Assembly: GCF_003426815.1 (NCBI RefSeq)
Contig: NZ_QKYK01000033.1
Location: 1-60,883, forward strand
DNA: 60,883 nt
Source: Desertimonas flava
GTDB taxonomy: Bacteria > Actinomycetota > Acidimicrobiia > Acidimicrobiales > Ilumatobacteraceae
Direction: 5' to 3'
Positions 6,835-50,724 of the stretch are shown piece by piece (positions within the stretch are counted from its first letter, which is position 1; each line of letters opens with the position of its first letter). The notes beneath the pieces are model-generated. The model saw only the letters and a program-made list of their open reading frames with translations. It had not been told where the DNA came from and made no database searches. The position numbers and the translations under genes were made by a program.

Positions 6835-6908
6835 TCCGGGGTCGTTCAATGGTAGGACACCTGGTTTTGGTCCAGGGTATAGGGGTTCGAGTCCTCTCCC
6901 CGGAGCCA
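6835..6908 (+). tRNA. tRNA-Gln (anticodon TTG)
   Basis: A full cloverleaf can be drawn: acceptor TCCGGGG with CCCCGGA, D-arm GTTCAATGGTAGGAC, anticodon stem CCTGG/CCAGG around loop TTTTGGT giving anticodon TTG, T-arm AGGGG-TTCGAGT-CCTCT. Discriminator G and an encoded CCA end (6906-6908). Reads CAA, and CAG by wobble. It stands alone, divergent from glmU. Confidence 0.97.
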
Positions 6909-39214: not shown

Positions 39215-40978
39215 TCAGGCGGGGGCGGGTTGGGCGCCGCGGACGAGATGGCCGGGCAGGGCGCCGGTGTGCTCCCCGCCGCGGAACGTGACGGTGCCCC
39301 GCTTGGCGGTCATCACGTAGCCGTCGGCGTCCTGCAGCAGGCGACGACCGCCGGCGGGCAGGTCGCGGACGATGTGAGGACGGCGGGCGGCGAGCCGGTC
39401 GAGGTCGATGACGTTGACGTCGCCGAGGTAGCCGGGCGCGAGGACGCCGCGATCCATCCATCCGACCTGGCGGGCGGTGCGCTGGGTGAGGTGGTGCACC
39501 ATCAGCTCGACGGGAAGGGCGCCGTCGCCCGGCCGCTTGGTCCACAGGGCGAGGGCGGTGGTCGGGAAGCTGCCGTCGCTGATCGCGCCACAGTGGGCAC
39601 CGGCGTCGGACAGCCCGATGACCGAGTGCGGCGACAGCAACATCTCCCGGACGTCGTCGAGGTTGCCGGCGGCGTAGTTGAACAGCGTCATGTAGAGGAG
39701 CTGGCGCCCGTGGTCCTCGACCATTCGGTCGAGCGTCTCGATCACCGGGTCGACCCCTCTCGCCGTCGCGACGGCGGCGATGCTGGTGGACGGCGCCGGC
39801 TCGTAGTCGACCGGGTCGCTCATCGGGAAGAGCTTGTCGAACGACGTGAACAGCGTGGCCGCCAGCCCGTCCATGCCCGCCGTGACGGTCCGGTGCTCGG
39901 TGACGAGCCGGTCGCGGACGTCCGGGTCCCGCAGGGCGGCGACACGTTCGGCGAGCGGGCGGTCGGCGATCGCCCGGTACGACGGGCAGATGGCGACGGG
40001 ATTGATCGACGCCTCGAGACCCTGGAGCACCCCGACGGGCCGGGGCGCGACCTGCAGGCGCAGCGGCAGCCCGTCGGCCACGCCGGCGGCGACCCACGCC
40101 TCCATCTCCCGCCAGCGCTGCGGCACCTGCTCGACCTGCTGGACCGTCATCGACAGCGGGCGGCCCGACGTCTCGACCATCGAGCGCATCAGTGACATCT
40201 CCTCGCGCGAGAAGTCGGCGTCGGGGCTGAGGTAGGCGTCGGAGATCATCTGCACCACGCCCGTCCCGGCCTCGCCGACGGCGCCGACGAGGGCGAGCAA
40301 CTCGTCGGCGGTCGAGAACCGTGTGCCCAGCGGATCGCCGTCCTTGGTGCGATGGGCGTAGGTGCGGCTGGTGGTGAACCCGAGCGCTCCCGCCTCCACG
40401 CCCTCGCGAACGAGCGCGGCCATGCGGCCCAGCTCCTCGGCGGTCGGGATCTCGTCGGGGTCGGCGCCCCGTTCACCCATCACGTAGGCGCGCAGCGGGG
40501 CGTGCGTGACGTGGGTGCCGACGTCGAGCGTGTAGTCCCGCCGGTCGAGGGCGTCGAGGTACTGCGGGAACGTCTCCCAGTCCCACGGCAGTCCTTCGGC
40601 GAGCGCCGACCCTGGGATGTCCTCGACGCCTTCGAGCATGCCGATGAGCCAGGCGTGGTGCTCGTCGGTCGGCAGCGCCGGGGCGAAGCCGACTCCGCAG
40701 TTGCCCATCGCCAGCGACGTGACGCCGTGCTGGCTCGACGGGGCGAGCACCGAGTCCCACGTGGCCTGCCCGTCGAAGTGGGTGTGGATGTCGACGAAGC
40801 CGGGGGTGACGAGCAGGCCGTCGGCGTCGACGACCTCGGCGTCGCTCGCGGCGGTATCGGCCTCGCCTGCGCCGACGGCGGCGACGACGCCGTCGCGGAT
40901 CACCACGTCGCCGACACGGGCCGGCGCCCCGGTGCCGTCGACGACGCGGCCGTTGCGGATCACGAGTTCACGAGCCAT
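39215..40978 (-). CDS. Amidohydrolase family protein, D-aminoacylase-like
   Basis: 587 residues. Opens with the composite beta-domain LVIRNGRVVDGTGAPARVGDV, then the metal motif VTPGFVDIHTHFDGQATWD near residue 60 (HxH). Later: GNCGVGFAP near 92, GALGFTTSRTYAH near 195, GLSDAGAHCG near 465 (metal Asp), and RQVGWMDRGVLAPGYLGDVNVID near 510. This is the Amidohydro_3/N-acyl-D-amino-acid deacylase type. The substrate is not certain; these proteins are abundant in actinobacteria and often misnamed. Same strand as the AAC(2') gene, 22 nt apart. Confidence 0.88.
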   Translation of the reverse strand: MARELVIRNGRVVDGTGAPARVGDVVIRDGVVAAVGAGEADTAASDAEVVDADGLLVTPGFVDIHTHFDGQATWDSVLAPSSQHGVTSLAMGNCGVGFAPALPTDEHHAWLIGMLEGVEDIPGSALAEGLPWDWETFPQYLDALDRRDYTLDVGTHVTHAPLRAYVMGERGADPDEIPTAEELGRMAALVREGVEAGALGFTTSRTYAHRTKDGDPLGTRFSTADELLALVGAVGEAGTGVVQMISDAYLSPDADFSREEMSLMRSMVETSGRPLSMTVQQVEQVPQRWREMEAWVAAGVADGLPLRLQVAPRPVGVLQGLEASINPVAICPSYRAIADRPLAERVAALRDPDVRDRLVTEHRTVTAGMDGLAATLFTSFDKLFPMSDPVDYEPAPSTSIAAVATARGVDPVIETLDRMVEDHGRQLLYMTLFNYAAGNLDDVREMLLSPHSVIGLSDAGAHCGAISDGSFPTTALALWTKRPGDGALPVELMVHHLTQRTARQVGWMDRGVLAPGYLGDVNVIDLDRLAARRPHIVRDLPAGGRRLLQDADGYVMTAKRGTVTFRGGEHTGALPGHLVRGAQPAPA

Positions 40979-41722: not shown

Positions 41723-42991
41723 TCACGGCCAGTCGACGGGGCGGCGGGCGGCGTGGGCGGCCGCGGCGAGTGCGACGAGATCGGCGAGGGCCAGCTCGAC
41801 GCGCGCGCCGTCGCCGAAGTCGTTCACCTGCAGCACTCCCGCCGCCGCCTCGGCGTCGCCCACCACGGCAACGAGCGCGTCGCGGGTGGTGCGGCACTGG
41901 CGGATCCGCGTCCCGATCGACCCCCCGACGACGAGCCGGGCCCGGAGTCCGGCCGCCACCAGGGCGTCGACCGCCCGCCGCGCCGCGACGTCGTGATCGG
42001 CCGCCACCGGGAGCACGCTCACCTGCACCGGTGCCAGCCACAGCGGCAGGCGGCCGCGGTGACGCTCGAGCACCGCTGCTGTGACGCGCTCCATCGAGCC
42101 GACCGTGCCGCGGTGCACCATGACGACGCGCCGGCGGGATCCGTCGGCGGCGTCGTAGGTGAGGTCGAACCGCTCCGGCTGGTTGCCGTCCACCTGGACC
42201 GTGGCGATCGTCTCGTCGTGGCCGCGGCCGTCGCGGACCTGGAGATCGAGCTTGGGTCCGTAGAAGGCCGCCTCGCCGGGCCCGTCGACGAGCTCGAGCC
42301 CGAACGCGTCGAGATCGACCGCCGCCGCAGCCTGGCGCAACGACTCCTCGGCCTGCTGCCACCACGCCTCGGAGCCGAGGAACCCGGGCCCGGGTCCGCG
42401 CCGTGACAACCGCACGTGATCGACCGACAGTCCGAGGATCCGCTGGGCTTCCAGCGCCGAGCGCAGCGCCACCGCCACCTCGTCGGCCAGCTGGTCGGGA
42501 CGGCAGAAGACGTGCGTGTCGTCGAGGTTGATCTGGCGGACACGAGCGAGCCCCGACACCACTCCCGATCGTTCGGCCCGGAACATCGCCCCCACCTCGT
42601 GCAGGCGCACCGGCAGCTCCCGCCACGAATGGCGGTCGGCGGCGAAGATCAGGGCGTGATGCGGGCAGTTGGCCGGTCGCAGCACGAGCTCGTCGCCGCC
42701 CACCGGCATCGGGGGGAACATGTCGTCGGAGAACTTCGCCCAGTGCCCCGACCGCTCGTACAGCGCCCGTTTGCCGAGCACCGGCGTGCGCACCTCCACG
42801 CAGCCGTCAGCTCGAGCGATGTCCCGGGCCAGCCGCTCGAGCTCGTCGCGGATCACCGTGCCGGCGGGGAGCCACAACGGCAGGCCGGCGCCGGCGAGCG
42901 GGTCGGTGTCGAAGATCCGCAGGTCGCGGTTGAGCTCGCGGTGGTCCGCGGGCTGGTCGCCGGGGTCGGCATCGGACGGGATGGCTGCCAT
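41723..42991 (-). CDS. thrS: Threonyl-tRNA synthetase, short form without TGS and editing domains
   Basis: 422 residues from ATG 42991, preceded by GAGGAG at 8 nt. Full-length bacterial ThrRS has about 640. The catalytic core is complete: motif 1 region LPLWLPAGTVIRDELERLARD, LRPANCPHHALIFA (zinc Cys), motif 2 RLHEVGAMFRAERSGVVSGLARVRQI, NLDDTHVFC (zinc His), motif 3 VMVHRGTVGSMER (zinc His), and the C-terminal anticodon-binding domain (VQVSVLPVAADHD). TGS and the second additional (editing) domain are missing at the N-terminus. It may be a paralog of a normal thrS elsewhere or the only copy. Preceded by a Thr-rich leader peptide. Confidence 0.88.
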   Translation of the reverse strand: MAAIPSDADPGDQPADHRELNRDLRIFDTDPLAGAGLPLWLPAGTVIRDELERLARDIARADGCVEVRTPVLGKRALYERSGHWAKFSDDMFPPMPVGGDELVLRPANCPHHALIFAADRHSWRELPVRLHEVGAMFRAERSGVVSGLARVRQINLDDTHVFCRPDQLADEVAVALRSALEAQRILGLSVDHVRLSRRGPGPGFLGSEAWWQQAEESLRQAAAAVDLDAFGLELVDGPGEAAFYGPKLDLQVRDGRGHDETIATVQVDGNQPERFDLTYDAADGSRRRVVMVHRGTVGSMERVTAAVLERHRGRLPLWLAPVQVSVLPVAADHDVAARRAVDALVAAGLRARLVVGGSIGTRIRQCRTTRDALVAVVGDAEAAAGVLQVNDFGDGARVELALADLVALAAAAHAARRPVDWP

Positions 42992-43054
42992 GGCGTTCGC
43001 TCCTCGAGCTGGGTCGGGTGTCGTTCGGCCGCTGGAGCCGGGACCGCTGCGAAC

Positions 43055-43077
43055 GCCTCGGAGCCGAGCTCCGGGGC
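43055..43077 (-). promoter_or_regulatory. Leader hairpin between the Thr leader peptide and ThrRS
   Basis: GCCTCGGAGC and GCTCCGGGGC form a 10-bp stem (one G-T) with loop CGA in the 5' leader, 15 nt after the leader-peptide stop. A later GGCTCC (minus strand, about 43033-43038) could compete for the GGAGC arm, so alternative folds are possible. No T-tract is seen. Confidence 0.45.
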
Positions 43078-43091
43078 CAGTTGGGTCTGCG

Positions 43092-43148
43092 TCAGTGCAG
43101 GTGGTCGCCGGAGGGATCCGGCGTGGTGGTCTGCATGCTGCGACGCAT
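43092..43148 (-). CDS. Threonine leader peptide of the ThrRS gene
   Basis: 18 residues, MRRSMQTTTPDPSGDHLH, with three Thr codons in a row (ACC ACC ACG). The ATG lies 7 nt after a TACCGT -10 box, the same leaderless arrangement seen at other genes here. The codons just after the Thr run can fold as CGCCGGA-TCCC-TCCGGCG. Stalling at Thr codons when charged tRNA-Thr is scarce would change folding of the leader and favour synthetase expression: classical attenuation logic, here inferred. Confidence 0.55.
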   Translation of the reverse strand: MRRSMQTTTPDPSGDHLH

Positions 43149-43155
43149 GGACGCG

Positions 43156-43161
43156 ACGGTA
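43156..43161 (-). promoter_or_regulatory. -10 box of the Thr leader / ThrRS transcript
   Basis: TACCGT on the minus strand, 7 nt before the leader-peptide ATG at 43148. Confidence 0.5.
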
Positions 43162-45914: not shown

Positions 45915-48900
45915 TCACCGCAGACGACGGGTGGCGAGCAACGCGCCGGCCCCGGCGGCGAGCAGCGCCAGGGCGGCGACGGACACGAGCGACGAGGACG
46001 TTCCGGTCGTCGGAAGCGTCCCCGGCACGGTGGACGTCGGCGCGGTGGAGGTGGGATCGGTCGGCGACGGTCCCGACGTCGTGGGCCCGAGCGTGGTGGG
46101 CGGTTCGGACGTCGGCGGGGCGGTCGAGGACGTCGTGGACGGAGTCACCTGTTCGGTGACGGTCATCACGAACGACAGCGGCTCGCTCTCCGTGCCGTCG
46201 GGATCGACGACGGTCGCCACCACCGTGAACGTTCCGGCCCGGGTGTAGGTGTGGGTGACCGGCGGGTCGGCCGGCCCGGGCAGCGTCACCGGCGGCGTCC
46301 CGTCGCCCCAGTCCACGGTGAACATGAACGTGCCCGCCATGTCGTCGGGCGAGGGGTCGACGGCACCGACCTTGATGGTCACGGGCTCGCCGACGATCGC
46401 GCTCGACGGGCCGTCGATCGTGGCCGTAGCGGCCGCGTTGGTGATCGTGATGGTCGTGGTGAGCTCGGCCGAGGCGCCACCGTCGGGATCGGCGACGAAC
46501 GCGGTGACCGTGCGGGTGCCCGGTCCGTCACTGAGGTACGACGCCGGCACGACCGCCGTCGGTGACGAGCCGACGTGGTCGTCGGTGCCGTCGTCGTCGA
46601 AGTCGAAGTGATAGGTGAGAGCGGCGAGGTCCGCCGTCGACGGGTCGTCGGCGCCGGTGATCGTGACGGTCGCGGTCGAGCCCTCGGCGACGGGACCGTC
46701 GTCGTCGAGCGCGGTGGCGGTCGGGGCCACGTTGGCGATCGACAGCGTGGTGACCGCCGAGAACGCCACCCCGTCGGTCAGTCGCAGGGTCACCTGATGT
46801 ATCGCCGCCGGATCGTCGCCGTCGAAGCCGAGCGCTTCGAGCTCGGCCCAGCTCAGCGTCGGCGCGGCGCCGGTGGCGTCGTCGAAGTCGCCATCGTCGT
46901 CGACGTCCCAGGCGTAGCTCGCACCGGGTCCGGCGATCGACCCCGAGCCGTCGAGTGTCAGGCTCTGACCCTCGTCGATCGCGTACGGACCGCCGGCGTC
47001 GGCCACCCCGTCGACGACTTGGGTGAGCGAGTCCGAGCTGGCGGCCAGCGCGGTCGTCGGGCCGAAGCTGGCCACGATCGCGTGACTCCCGACGGCGAGC
47101 GCCGACGTCGTCAACGATGCCTGCCCCGAGGCGTCGACCGGCACGGTGGCGAGCGTGCTCGCGCCGTCGGAGTACGTGACACTGCCGGTGGTCACCGGAC
47201 TGCCACCCGACGTGACCGTCGCCGTGAACGTGACGCTCTGGCCGAACGTCGTCGGGTTCACCGACGACGTGAGCGACGTCGACGTCGGCGCCAGGTTCAC
47301 CACCTGGGTGAGCGAGTCGGAGCTCGCCGCCGCCGTGGCCGTCGCGCCGAACGCGGCCGTGACGGTGTGGCTTCCGACCGAGAGCGCCGACGTGGTGAAC
47401 GACGCCTGCCCGGAGGCGTCGACCGGCACGGTGGCGAGCGTGCTCGCGCCGTCGGAGAACGTGACACTGCCAGTGGTCACGGGACTGCCACCCGACGTGA
47501 CCGTCGCCGTGAACGTGACGCTCTGACCGAACGTCGTCGGGTTCACCGACGACGTGAGCGACGTCGATGTCGGCGCCAGGTTCACCACCTGGCTGAGCGA
47601 ATCCGAGCTGGCCTCGAACGCGGCGGTGGCGCCGTACGCGGCGGTGATGGGATGGGAGCCGACGGTGAGGGTGGAGGTGGTGAGCGTCGCCTGACCGGCG
47701 CCATCCACCGCCACGGTGCCGAGCGTCGAGGCGCCGTCGGTGAACGTGACCGATCCGGAGGTGACCGGGCTGCCGTCGCTCGTCACGGTGGCGGTGAACG
47801 TGACCGCCTGACCAAACGTCGATGGGTTGAGCGACGACGTCAGGTCGGTGGTCGTAGGCGCCGGGGTGGTGATGTTCAGGCACCACCCCCCGCTGACCGC
47901 GCCGGAGTCTGCGCCGGCGTCGTCGACCACGAACAGCTGCCACACGCCATTGGGATCGGTGCCGTTGAAGGTGCTGAGGGCGGTCGCCGATGAGACCACG
48001 GGGGCGGGGGCCGGGAACGGGGCGTCGGCGGCATCGGCGTCGCTGTCGCTCGGGCGGAACGTCCCGCTCGACAGCGGTCCGCCCACCGGGATCGTCCCGC
48101 CGGCGGCGTCGGCGAACGTCAGTGTCGCTCCGGAAGCGGCCTCAGTTCCGCCGACGTCGCTCATCAGCACCAGGTTCTGCCCGGCCGGGCCGACGAGCAG
48201 GACGTCGAAGTCGACCGGTACCTGGTGCGACACACTCCCGAGTTGCACGGTGACGAGGGATGTCGACGTGCCGGCTCCACTGACGGTGATCCGCGACGGG
48301 TAGGGGGTCGCCGGGCCGCTCGATGCGGGTCCGGTGATCGCTCCGGTGTTGCACCATTGCCCCTGGGCCGGCGTCGAGGTGGGAGTGTCGACGGTCTGGG
48401 TGATCGATCCGGAGCTCGTGAGCAGGCCGGCTGCGCCGCTGTAGGTGGCCGTGATCACGTGGGCGCCCTCGGTGAGCGCGCTGGTGGTGAGCGTCGCCTG
48501 GCCGGACGCGTCGAGGGCCACGGGGCCGCCGAGCGACGTGGCGCCGTCCTGGAACGACACCGTTCCCGTGGGGGTGCCCGAGCCTTCGGCCCGCGTGACC
48601 GTCGCCGTGAAGGTGACGCTGCCGCCGACCAGCGAGGGGTTGGCGCTGGAGGTGACGACCGTCGTGGTGGCGACGGCCGCCTCCTCGGTGTCGATCGTCA
48701 GACTCCAGCCGCCGGCGATGCTGCCGGCGTCACCGGTGGCGTCGTCGACGATGTAGAGGCTCCACGTCCCGTTGGGGTTGGTGCCGACGAACGCCGCGGC
48801 GAGCGTCGTGTGACCCGCCGGGGTCGGGGCGGGCGCGGGGAACGCGTCGTCGCCACCGACGGCGTTGTTCGTCGGCCGATAGCTCACCGTGCCGCTCACC

Positions 48901-49541
48901 ACGCCGGTGTTCGGGTAGGGGCCGGCCGCGCCGTCGTCGAACGTGAGGTCGGCGTTGCTGACCCCGAACCCGCCGCCCGATCCGGCGTCGGACATGACGA
49001 TGATGCTCTGGCCGCCCGGACCCACGAGCAGGATGTCGATGTCCTGGGCGATGACGTGGGTGACCCCGAACAGGTGCAGGTCGACGTCGGTGATCAGCCC
49101 CGGCTGGCCCGACACGGTGATCGACGACGGATACGGCGAGGCCGTGCCCGTTGCGGGAATGGTGATCGCCCCGGGGTTCGGCGGGACGTCGATGAGTGCG
49201 AGCGGGGTGAACACGTCGTCGGGTTCGCCGGTCGACACGGGCGACTCGGTGGTCGCCGTCGGCGCCTCGGTGGGATCCGGGGCGTCGGTGGGATCGGGAC
49301 CCTCGGTCGACGGTGTCGGCTCGGCAGGCTCGGTCGTCGCCACCGGTTCGGTGGCGACCGGGTCCTGTGGCGCGGCGGACTCGACCGGCTCGGTCGTCGC
49401 CGCCGGCTCGATCGTCGCCGCGGGCTCTGACGGTTCCGTCGTGCCGACGCCGGCCGCGGCGGCACCAGAGACGCCGATCACGACGCCCAGCACACCGACC
49501 ACTACCCCGCTGACCCGATGCAGCCCACGCGATCGACCCAT
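45915..49541 (-). CDS. Large LPxTG-anchored protein with P-domain-like, Ig-like and PKD-like modules
   Basis: 1208 residues from ATG 49541. Signal peptide about 1-31, a Thr/Glu/Pro linker to about 115, a proprotein-convertase P-like beta-sandwich (SPYPSSITVSG...DIDILLVGPGGQ...GTWSLYIVDDATGDAGSIAGGWSLTI in pieces), an Ig-like repeat, a second P-like module (VDFDVLLVGPAGQ, GVWQLFVVDDAGADSG), three more Ig-like repeats of 95 residues, PKD-like modules with DVDDDGDFDD and VDWGDGTPPV, a Thr/Pro stalk, then LPTTG, a membrane helix and RRLR. Probably a cell-surface adhesion or polymer-binding protein. Confidence 0.9.
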   Translation of the reverse strand: MGRSRGLHRVSGVVVGVLGVVIGVSGAAAAGVGTTEPSEPAATIEPAATTEPVESAAPQDPVATEPVATTEPAEPTPSTEGPDPTDAPDPTEAPTATTESPVSTGEPDDVFTPLALIDVPPNPGAITIPATGTASPYPSSITVSGQPGLITDVDLHLFGVTHVIAQDIDILLVGPGGQSIIVMSDAGSGGGFGVSNADLTFDDGAAGPYPNTGVVSGTVSYRPTNNAVGGDDAFPAPAPTPAGHTTLAAAFVGTNPNGTWSLYIVDDATGDAGSIAGGWSLTIDTEEAAVATTTVVTSSANPSLVGGSVTFTATVTRAEGSGTPTGTVSFQDGATSLGGPVALDASGQATLTTSALTEGAHVITATYSGAAGLLTSSGSITQTVDTPTSTPAQGQWCNTGAITGPASSGPATPYPSRITVSGAGTSTSLVTVQLGSVSHQVPVDFDVLLVGPAGQNLVLMSDVGGTEAASGATLTFADAAGGTIPVGGPLSSGTFRPSDSDADAADAPFPAPAPVVSSATALSTFNGTDPNGVWQLFVVDDAGADSGAVSGGWCLNITTPAPTTTDLTSSLNPSTFGQAVTFTATVTSDGSPVTSGSVTFTDGASTLGTVAVDGAGQATLTTSTLTVGSHPITAAYGATAAFEASSDSLSQVVNLAPTSTSLTSSVNPTTFGQSVTFTATVTSGGSPVTTGSVTFSDGASTLATVPVDASGQASFTTSALSVGSHTVTAAFGATATAAASSDSLTQVVNLAPTSTSLTSSVNPTTFGQSVTFTATVTSGGSPVTTGSVTYSDGASTLATVPVDASGQASLTTSALAVGSHAIVASFGPTTALAASSDSLTQVVDGVADAGGPYAIDEGQSLTLDGSGSIAGPGASYAWDVDDDGDFDDATGAAPTLSWAELEALGFDGDDPAAIHQVTLRLTDGVAFSAVTTLSIANVAPTATALDDDGPVAEGSTATVTITGADDPSTADLAALTYHFDFDDDGTDDHVGSSPTAVVPASYLSDGPGTRTVTAFVADPDGGASAELTTTITITNAAATATIDGPSSAIVGEPVTIKVGAVDPSPDDMAGTFMFTVDWGDGTPPVTLPGPADPPVTHTYTRAGTFTVVATVVDPDGTESEPLSFVMTVTEQVTPSTTSSTAPPTSEPPTTLGPTTSGPSPTDPTSTAPTSTVPGTLPTTGTSSSLVSVAALALLAAGAGALLATRRLR
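47106..47580 (-). repeat. 285-bp near-identical tandem repeat in the large surface-protein gene
   Basis: The last two Ig-like units are offset by 285 bp (95 codons) and are almost identical at the DNA level; for example GTGGCGAGCGTGCTCGCGCC occurs at 47146 and 47431. The first two Ig-like units are more diverged. Confidence 0.85.
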
Positions 49542-49692
49542 CGCTTCACCCCGTTCCGGCCCACGACCCTGGCCCACGACGCCACGAACAGCCAGCCCCC
49601 AGCGGCAGGCGTAGCTTTCGACTCTACTTGTCTCGCCTCGTGCTGACCAGAAGTCCCTGTCGCGCCGGCTCGCCTGCGGGTCACCGGGCGTT

Positions 49693-50724
49693 TCAGTGAC
49701 CGCTGAACGCCCGCCGGTAGGCCTGCGGCGCGACGCCGACGATCCGTCGGAAGTGCGGCCGCATCGAGACGCCGTCGCCGAACCCACAGGCGGACGCGAC
49801 GGCGTCGATGTCGAGCGACGACGTCTCCAGCAGGCGCTGAGCCTGCAGCACCCGTTGTCCGATCAGCCAGCTGAGCGGCGAGCTGCCCGTGCGAGCGCGG
49901 AACTGCCGGTCGAACGTGCGCCGACTCATGTTCGCACGAGCCGCCACGGCGTCGATGTCGAGTTCGCGGTCGGCGAGGTGTTCGACGCAGTGGGTGATCA
50001 CCTCGGCGAGCGGGTCCCCGTCAGTGGGCTGGGGCACCGGCCGCTCGACGTACTGGGCCTGACCGCCGGCCCGGTGCGGCGCCACGACGAGCGAGCGGGC
50101 CACGGCGTTGGCCGCGGCCGCGCCGTGGCGGCGGCGGACGAGGTGAAGGCAGGCGTCGATGCCCGCCGCGCTCCCGGCACTGGTGAGCACGTCGCCGTCG
50201 TCGACGTACAGCACGCCCGGATCGATCTCGAGGTCGCCGTGCTCGCGTTGTAGGGCGTCGGCGGCCTGCCAATGCGTCGTCGCCCGACGTCCGGCCAGCA
50301 AGCCAGCCGCGGCCACGACGAAGGCGCCGAGACACAACCCGGCGATCGTCGCCCCGCGCCGGTGAGCAGCGCGGATCGCGTCGAGCAGCTCGAGTCGGGG
50401 CGGTGCGCCTCCGGGAGGACGCCACGACGGGACGATCACGATGTCGGCGGCGGCCAACACGTCCGTCATCTGGCGCCAGCCGTACGGCACGTCGAGCCGC
50501 ACGCCTGCGGTGGACGTCAACGGGCCGGGCTCGCCGGCCACCATCCGCACGTCCCATCGCGGCACACCGAGCCGCGTGAGATCGACGTCGAACACCCGCG
50601 CCGGCGCCGCCACCTCGAGCAGGCCGGCCCCGTCGCCCACGACCACGGCGACGATGTCGCCGTCGCGACCGTCCTGGCCGTGATCGTGATCGTGATCGTG
50701 ATCGTGATCGGCGCGAACGGGCAT
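49693..50724 (-). CDS. GlxA-type transcriptional regulator (DJ-1/PfpI domain plus AraC HTH)
   Basis: 343 residues. Residues 25-190 form a DJ-1/PfpI-like domain (IVAVVVGDGAGLLEVAAPARVF, IVPSWRPPGGAPPR, IAGLCLGAFVVAAAGLLAGRRATTHWQ with the nucleophile-elbow Cys). The AraC HTH spans about 230-340 (DIDAVAARANMSRRTFDRQFRARTG, LLETSSLDIDAVASACGFGDGVSMRPHFRR). The N-terminus is DHDHDHDHDHG, encoded by a GATCGT hexamer repeat, so the true start could lie a little downstream. Divergent from the cysteine hydrolase, its probable target. Confidence 0.9.
   Translation of the reverse strand: MPVRADHDHDHDHDHGQDGRDGDIVAVVVGDGAGLLEVAAPARVFDVDLTRLGVPRWDVRMVAGEPGPLTSTAGVRLDVPYGWRQMTDVLAAADIVIVPSWRPPGGAPPRLELLDAIRAAHRRGATIAGLCLGAFVVAAAGLLAGRRATTHWQAADALQREHGDLEIDPGVLYVDDGDVLTSAGSAAGIDACLHLVRRRHGAAAANAVARSLVVAPHRAGGQAQYVERPVPQPTDGDPLAEVITHCVEHLADRELDIDAVAARANMSRRTFDRQFRARTGSSPLSWLIGQRVLQAQRLLETSSLDIDAVASACGFGDGVSMRPHFRRIVGVAPQAYRRAFSGH
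50680..50709. repeat. Hexanucleotide microsatellite GATCGT
   Basis: Five units of GATCGT in frame at the 5' end of the GlxA-type regulator gene, encoding alternating His and Asp. Such arrays can change length by slippage. Confidence 0.8.

Follow-up and report, generated by a model that had tools for sequence, protein, structure and literature searches.

We analysed a stretch of 60,883 nucleotides from the actinobacterium Desertimonas flava (contig NZ_QKYK01000033.1; hereafter the window, in whose positions all coordinates are given). On its minus strand, a short open reading frame (ORF) with a run of threonine codons lies directly before a gene for a threonyl-tRNA synthetase (ThrRS) reduced to the core of the enzyme. 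Comparison with related loci makes it highly probable that this region is a ribosome-mediated transcription attenuator of the trp/thr type, controlling an auxiliary, core-only ThrRS. The leader, the promoter spacing, the alternative pairings with compensatory change, the status of the enzyme as a second copy and a codon split between leader and enzyme come from such comparison; the regulatory response, the tRNA isoacceptor sensed and the physiological trigger are what we infer. Attenuators of this kind are already known; new are the scope of the family, the evidence for the pairings and the codon split.

The threonine leader and its core-only synthetase

A −10-like hexamer, TACCGT, occupies 43161..43156 (minus strand, as are all features of the locus) and is followed, after 7 nt, by the leader ATG at 43148. 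From this spacing, the transcript is probably leaderless, starting at or next to the ATG. The leader peptide ORF, MRRSMQTTTPDPSGDHLH, spans 43148..43092, with 18 codons and a TGA stop at 43094..43092, and contains the putative regulatory Thr codons ACC ACC ACG (43130..43122). A Shine–Dalgarno-like GAGGAG (43005..43000) stands 8 nt before the start of the synthetase gene (42991..41723), which comprises 422 codons (42991..41726) and a stop.

Pfam, NCBIfam, a residue alignment and a tree identify this gene as a core-only ThrRS paralogue. Its Pfam matches are tRNA-synt_2b and HGTP_anticodon only. The NCBIfam profile TIGR00418 (thrS) is matched over positions 171–558 of 565, with a score of 381.2 against a cut-off of 383.65, a cut-off reached by 31 of the 39 core-type genes from genomes tested for two thrS genes (below). 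Because the N-terminal profile positions are uncovered and Pfam shows core domains only, we consider the TGS and editing domains absent. By sequence, the closest solved structure is the core of Staphylococcus aureus ThrRS. An earlier reading of this DNA from its letters alone (the sequence-only reading) had described the 18-codon ORF with three successive Thr codons, its ATG 7 nt after TACCGT, and the 422-residue core without TGS and editing domains, all of which hold. It had also set the locus apart from a T-box, in agreement with covariance-model searches of the window, which gave no Rfam match to a T-box at gathering score; the sole match there is a tRNA.

Besides the window gene, we collected 53 distinct relatives of the core gene, all assigned to Actinomycetota from title or lineage; L035 and L079, being one contig, were counted once. 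We scored a leader wherever the 350 nt upstream contained an ORF of no more than 30 codons with an (ACN)3 run. Such a mini-ORF precedes 50 of the 54 core-type loci with enough upstream sequence, a count that includes the window and the duplicate L035; 40 dinucleotide-shuffled sets averaged 0.75 such loci and never exceeded 3 of 54. Dinucleotide shuffling of the window's own upstream region produced one in 12 of 2,000 cases. The Thr run is thus conserved in the upstream regions of orthologues, a check that the sequence-only reading had proposed. Four loci are missing from the count: L068 and L078 carry two-Thr leaders in the same place, the leader of L089 lies further upstream, and L088 is frame-broken and has no leader peptide. 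The conservation suggests that the leader ORF is translated.

We aligned 52 of these loci, the window included (alignment A1), leaving out L083 (no upstream sequence), L088 (frame-broken) and L035 (duplicate). The aligned leaders hold at least three Thr codons in 50 loci and two in 2. In 52 of 52, a TANNNT box lies 6–8 nt (5–9 allowed) before an in-frame start, which is ATG in 46 and GTG in 6; the background of this test is 0.45% of positions, with 1.8 candidate starts per locus. After the Thr-Pro-Asp/Glu part, the reading frame of the leaders shifts by one nucleotide (SGA versus LRR endings). Because the frame differs there between leaders, we take the RNA, and not the end of the peptide, to be what is conserved.

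Competing helices in the leader RNA

Four segments placed by the leader alignment offer alternative pairings. Segment A (CGCCGGA, 43123..43117) overlaps the third Thr codon and is a partner of segment B (CTCCGGCG, 43113..43106), which lies within the leader ORF and can pair either with A, as protector, or with C, as antiterminator. Segment C (GCCCCGGAGC, 43077..43068), the alternative partner of B, is also the 5′ arm of a terminator-like hairpin, whose 3′ arm is segment D (GCTCCGAGGC, 43064..43055). In the window, A:B, B:C and C:D comprise 7, 6 and 9 pairs, respectively; the first is the 7-bp hairpin over leader codons that the sequence-only reading had recognized (43123..43117 with 43112..43106).

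Across A1, 93.0% of cells are paired in A:B, 95.5% in B:C and 92.3% in C:D. Doubly changed cells number 8, 20 and 23, versus shuffled means of 2.7, 5.2 and 6.7, and 0 of 500 shuffles were as high. At column pair 38–99 of B:C, U–A is replaced by C–G in twelve sequences, and in 15 the A:B pair built on column 38 is open. With cut-offs of at least 5 of 7 pairs (A:B), 5 of 6 (B:C) and 8 of 10 (C:D), the helices are kept in 47, 51 and 50 of the 52 loci, and all three in 44.

In partition-function folding, a stalled ribosome was represented by a mask over all RNA as far as 13 nt from the first nucleotide of the Thr codons (for L068 and L078, from the codon before the first Thr). In nascent RNA, B:C formed in 4 of 52 loci without a mask, in 50 with the ribosome on the first Thr codon and in 4 with the ribosome at the stop. 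C:D formed in 51 of 52 loci with B covered, and again in 51 with the ribosome at the stop.

We propose that RNA polymerase begins at or beside the leader ATG. With ample Thr-tRNA, the ribosome would reach the leader stop, leaving B covered or held by A; with B unavailable, C:D would pair and transcription would end. The trigger would be scarce Thr-tRNA, through starvation or an inhibited housekeeping ThrRS. The ribosome would then wait on the Thr codons, covering A, and the free B would seize C before D is made, so that transcription would continue into the spare ThrRS. Peptide-controlled attenuation, as the sequence-only reading had suggested, is what the conserved leader, the box spacing and the alternative pairings argue for.

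A covariance model of the element scores 61.5 bits at the core-ThrRS leader in the D. flava genome and 26.1 at the next match; as the high score occurs at the ThrRS locus alone, other genes under the same element in this genome are disfavoured. Among 396 genomes of the phylum, matches of at least 45 bits comprise the D. flava locus, ten loci before known core-ThrRS genes and a new one, L144 (G853:C12; 45.8 bits), in which a two-Thr leader stands before the gene of a ThrRS relative (residues 16–238 at 52% identity) outside the 53. Downstream of eleven weaker matches, nine in the phylum (L145, L146 and L148–L154) and two in D. flava (L130 and L131), we found no ThrRS motif.

In the open-licence literature (subscription papers lay outside the search), we found no description of a core-ThrRS leader family or of the codon split; the sole earlier report found is thrL of Streptomyces lividans. 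In strain TK24, thrL lies upstream of thrS (SLIV_19412/SLIV_19410) and encodes a leaderless leader peptide, MKRVRPFLETTPGFVPAR, with two Thr (PMC8079986, passages on leaders). A leaderless, Thr-containing leader directly before thrS is what the window family probably has as well, in agreement with its box spacing. Missing domains, conservation, alternative pairings, codon choice and which of two ThrRS is concerned do not figure in those passages of PMC8079986. Because thrL and the leaders of Streptomyces-like loci (the 28 further loci below) share the ending -VPAR, thrL is probably orthologous to the element described here.

Leaders before actinobacterial synthetase genes have also been described for other amino acids, namely trpS and leuS attenuators in Streptomyces (PMC1262725, in part) and leuL2, trpL2 and alaL of S. 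lividans, of which leuL2 and trpL2 are leaderless (PMC8079986, same passages). The part of PMC1262725 on such elements covers trp, cys, leu and ile and gives no conserved RNA structure for threonine operons. The sequence-only reading had called peptide-controlled attenuation combined with a non-editing synthetase an uncommon pairing; with these precedents and S. lividans thrL, that was too strong, since an attenuator before a spare synthetase is not new. Vecchione and Sello, in a paper of 2010, reportedly described, to judge by its title, how ribosome-mediated attenuation of transcription controls the gene of an auxiliary, antibiotic-resistant TrpRS; the gene is presumably trpRS1 of Streptomyces coelicolor. 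That system likewise joins a spare synthetase to leader-peptide attenuation, with Trp in place of Thr and with resistance tested for TrpRS. The thr operon leader of Escherichia coli and other gammaproteobacteria has a run of Thr codons and competing hairpins and controls Thr biosynthesis. The window element shares the run and the hairpins but differs in its target and in codon choice, the E. coli leader having eight ACC codons (PMC1183508); the window has no Rfam match to the thr leader at gathering score.

Several observations weigh against the attenuator reading. The window's C:D stem (43077..43068 with 43064..43055), which the sequence-only reading had given as a 10-bp hairpin, exists but is not perfect, with 9 pairs and one C–A mismatch, and its T tract is weak (3 T in the 12 nt after D). 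Termination of S. lividans thrL was judged unclear (PMC8079986, same passages). In B:C, two pairs show a double change, a number reached by 413 of 500 shuffles; because this pair count is no higher than in shuffles, the covariation support for B:C rests on two variable pairs. With D present, the stalled state still favours C:D (equilibrium means of 0.86 for C:D and 0.03 for B:C), although the window is more balanced than the family (0.39 and 0.52). Because C:D wins once D is made, even under stall, the switch would have to be kinetic in most members; a race between ribosome and polymerase is part of the classical attenuation scheme as outlined in part of PMC1183508. Finally, an (ACN)3 mini-ORF also lies upstream of 5 of 30 full-length thrS genes.

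The poor T tract of the window and the unassigned terminator of thrL (PMC8079986, same passages) would also suit hairpins that act on translation, through Shine–Dalgarno access, or on Rho-dependent termination. We regard this as unlikely, given that T is enriched after D throughout the family (mean 5.0 in 12 nt versus 1.9 expected) and that Shine–Dalgarno accessibility is just marginally under the shuffled level (0.32 versus 0.36; lower in 32 of 49 loci with a recognized site), a signal too unclear to retain Shine–Dalgarno sequestration. It is barely credible that the leader is a chance ORF and the conserved element merely the terminator of the upstream gene: short ORFs are frequent in GC-rich DNA, and the mini-ORFs before full-length thrS genes fit such a view, but divergent sequences keep the start, its distance from the box, the Thr codons and the segments that pair, and the RNA model has its single strong match in the D. 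flava genome at this locus. As a separate observation, the terminator tails in A1 often read TTnTCGT after D, a sequence to which the ACGACGA of the Thr codons could anneal.

Codon choice in leader and enzyme

In the 50 loci with at least three leader Thr codons, ACG accounts for 134 of the 150 codons at the first three Thr positions, of which the third alone is tied into the A:B pairing. In the enzyme ORFs of 52 loci, ACG makes up 49 of 589 Thr codons (8%), versus 1,159 of 3,464 (33%) in flanking ORFs, which were picked by length and codon-position GC; where the flanking ORFs offer at least 20 Thr codons, the enzyme share lies below theirs in 42 of 44 loci. No ACG at all occurs in 30 of 53 core enzyme genes. 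The difference recurs within genomes: in a matched set of 35, ACG accounts for 27 of 419 Thr codons in the paralogue versus 295 of 1,113 (26.5%) in the full-length thrS, and is lower in 32 of 35. This set derives from 37 genomes fetched, of which G604 and G924 failed the motif filter; G900 and G947 were excluded because their long match is partial.

Ordinary expression-level codon bias can be ruled out as the cause, because the paralogue is otherwise less optimized than the housekeeping gene. Seven other fourfold boxes show no comparable drop of G- versus C-ending codons. Eight of the 16 strongest single-codon shifts are gains, each of a codon that the housekeeping gene seldom uses; Thr shifts to its commonest codon. 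At 131 alignment positions without a Thr majority, ACG is found in 34 of 374 Thr codons; because Thr codons at such positions avoid ACG too, inheritance alone is insufficient to account for the pattern.

Further loci came from the genus of G586 (150 large, Streptomyces-like genomes), in which the RNA model matched 80 genomes at E ≤ 0.001. We took the 28 best new loci, from genomes without a row in the model; several share leaders and may be near copies of one another or of model rows. All 28 have a ThrRS ORF, 25 leaders were recognized by pattern and 24 of them have a box. The 25 recognized leaders use ACG in 75 of 75 Thr codons, and the enzymes in 3 of 296. The G586 genome has tRNAThr genes with CGT, GGT and TGT anticodons (most of its 68 tRNA hits were scanned).

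Because the leader codons of relatives are mostly ACG, the sensor most likely reports the charging of the ACG-reading tRNAThr (CGU anticodon) in most of them. An enzyme gene that avoids ACG would stay translatable under the same tRNA shortage. We tentatively advance, as a plausible reading, an isoacceptor-specific alarm, in which the ACG leader would sense the loss of charged tRNAThr(CGU) and the rescue gene, largely purged of ACG, would hence remain translatable. Selective tRNA charging theory expects a sensor to carry sensitive codons.

Other findings count against this alarm. By odds ratio alone, the TGC and AAG shifts rank above ACG, although those losses favour rare codons, unlike the Thr shift. 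In the window itself, the leader reads ACC ACC ACG and 7 of the enzyme's 12 Thr codons are ACG; because the leader is mostly ACC and the enzyme rich in ACG, isoacceptor sensing is unsupported for the window copy. L068 resembles the window, with an ACG-poor leader (ACT ACC) and an ACG-rich enzyme (4 of 9). ACG-rich leaders also stand before enzymes with ACG in 5 of 15 (L045), 4 of 16 (L073) and 3 of 10 (L075) Thr codons, and L078 pairs a leader reading ACC ACG with an enzyme using ACG in 0 of 4. A trend linking ACG-poor leaders to ACG-rich enzymes is only suggestive, because L078, L045, L073 and L075 do not fit it.

The spare synthetase and its setting

D. flava also has a full-length thrS elsewhere in its genome, at C72, with a SAD editing domain; the sequence-only reading had proposed to look for one. 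Each of the 39 genomes tested, of the 53 other relatives, has exactly two thrS matches, one of them confined to the core. The longer match starts at profile position 1 in 37 of 39 (it is partial in G900 and G947), and the core match runs from about position 148 on. The longer ThrRS could edit in trans for the core enzyme of the same genome, so that the mischarging tolerance which the sequence-only reading had inferred for the core enzyme is a possibility at most. D. flava also has a third tRNA_SAD domain, in a 254-aa frame (G000:C29:12668-12796), possibly a stand-alone trans-editing protein. In L008, L014, L023, L027 and L033, full-length thrS genes of small genomes have a three-Thr mini-ORF at most 350 nt upstream, either by chance or as a separate leader.

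Close relatives of D. flava yielded little. Among 200 genomes from its family, searched at a cut-off of 1e-30, the matches listed besides the D. flava core gene reach at most 43% identity, near that of D. flava's own full-length thrS (40%), and in 395 genomes of the same class nothing beyond its own core gene passes 1e-94. The phylum search (396 genomes, 1e-92) gave 13 matches: the D. flava gene, 11 core-type genes and L046, which we take as a full-length thrS. A contig scan of species-level genomes gave 45 loci, of which 43 (L047–L089) are core-type and two (L090 and L091) are not. In a tree of 36 of the 54 paralogues, all fall on one side of a 100/100 branch, which rules out recent duplication of the housekeeping thrS. 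Because all 36 share that side, a single origin with horizontal spread is likely. In-frame stops occur in the core genes of L037 (one), L045 (one) and L088 (five), as decayed copies or assembly errors.

Residues C413, R442, D462, H464 and H590 (human numbering), which presumably serve zinc and threonine binding, are kept in 54 of 54 rows of the residue comparison (L035 included); as the zinc ligands are kept, a zinc-independent isoform is disfavoured. The same attenuator might chiefly serve an inducible resistance enzyme with an altered inhibitor site, switched on by uncharged tRNAThr once a natural inhibitor such as borrelidin blocks the housekeeping ThrRS, much like TrpRS1 for indolmycin; to judge from sequence, this is possible, though rather less than probable. 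While the catalytic and zinc residues are constant, positions that contact borrelidin are mostly changed in the core family: M411 to A or S (51 of 54), Y392 to F (44), H391 to K (42), Q460 to L (54) and A592 to G (43). Four of these are nearly constant in the 35 matched housekeeping ThrRS (M411 in 35, Y392 in 34, Q460 in 33 and A592 in 34), and the gene is scattered among distant actinobacteria, with no copy found in the near relatives sampled. PMC4389257 lists the residues that contact borrelidin and names H309/H388 and L489/L567 as resistance sites; because the changed positions include contacts listed there, a resistant core ThrRS is possible, not established. Against it, 33 of the 35 housekeeping ThrRS also have H391 replaced, by Y, W or F, and 16 of 35 have Q at L567, which weakens resistance from L567Q alone; the housekeeping ThrRS of D. 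flava has W391 and H567. L460 and G592 are shared with S. aureus ThrRS. F539, among the four changes listed for the borrelidin producer's ThrRS (PMC4389257), is unchanged in 54 of 54 core-family rows.

The missing editing domain invites another view, in which the paralogue would serve deliberate mistranslation, being induced by Thr shortage to place Ser or another amino acid at Thr codons. In Anabaena, ThrRS T2, whose N-terminal editing domain is impaired, escapes Zur repression when zinc is low and produces Ser-tRNAThr under stress (PMC4787780). Like the core enzyme, the stress-induced T2 is a second ThrRS without effective editing beside an editing one; the core family differs in that the editing domain is absent, the zinc ligands are kept and an attenuator is present. 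Deliberate mistranslation nevertheless seems quite improbable, since all 39 genomes tested also encode a longer ThrRS and the corresponding partner in Anabaena performs editing in trans.

Elsewhere on the minus strand of the window, a 1,290-aa ORF (45915-49787) has repeated Ig-like stretches and ends with LPTTG and a hydrophobic tail, in the manner of a sortase-anchored surface protein. An amidohydrolase ORF (39218-40978; Pfam Amidohydro_3) is possibly D-aminoacylase-like. The C-terminal part of the ORF at 44223-45782 matches DUF6597 and the AraC-type HTH_18, and its true start is probably inside the listed frame. The tRNA gene that is the window's sole Rfam match lies on the plus strand at 6835-6905.

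If the alarm holds, a sensitive sensor and an insensitive message would have been built together, in a stress-induced, editing-free and possibly inhibitor-resistant ThrRS. The controlled enzyme is the mirror image of the sensor for Thr codons, against its own general codon drift. The probable Thr attenuator, clearly structured and common to many actinobacterial lineages, offers a test of leader codon choice, and it hints at a shared, inducible spare ThrRS with a possible role in tolerance to antibiotics aimed at ThrRS.

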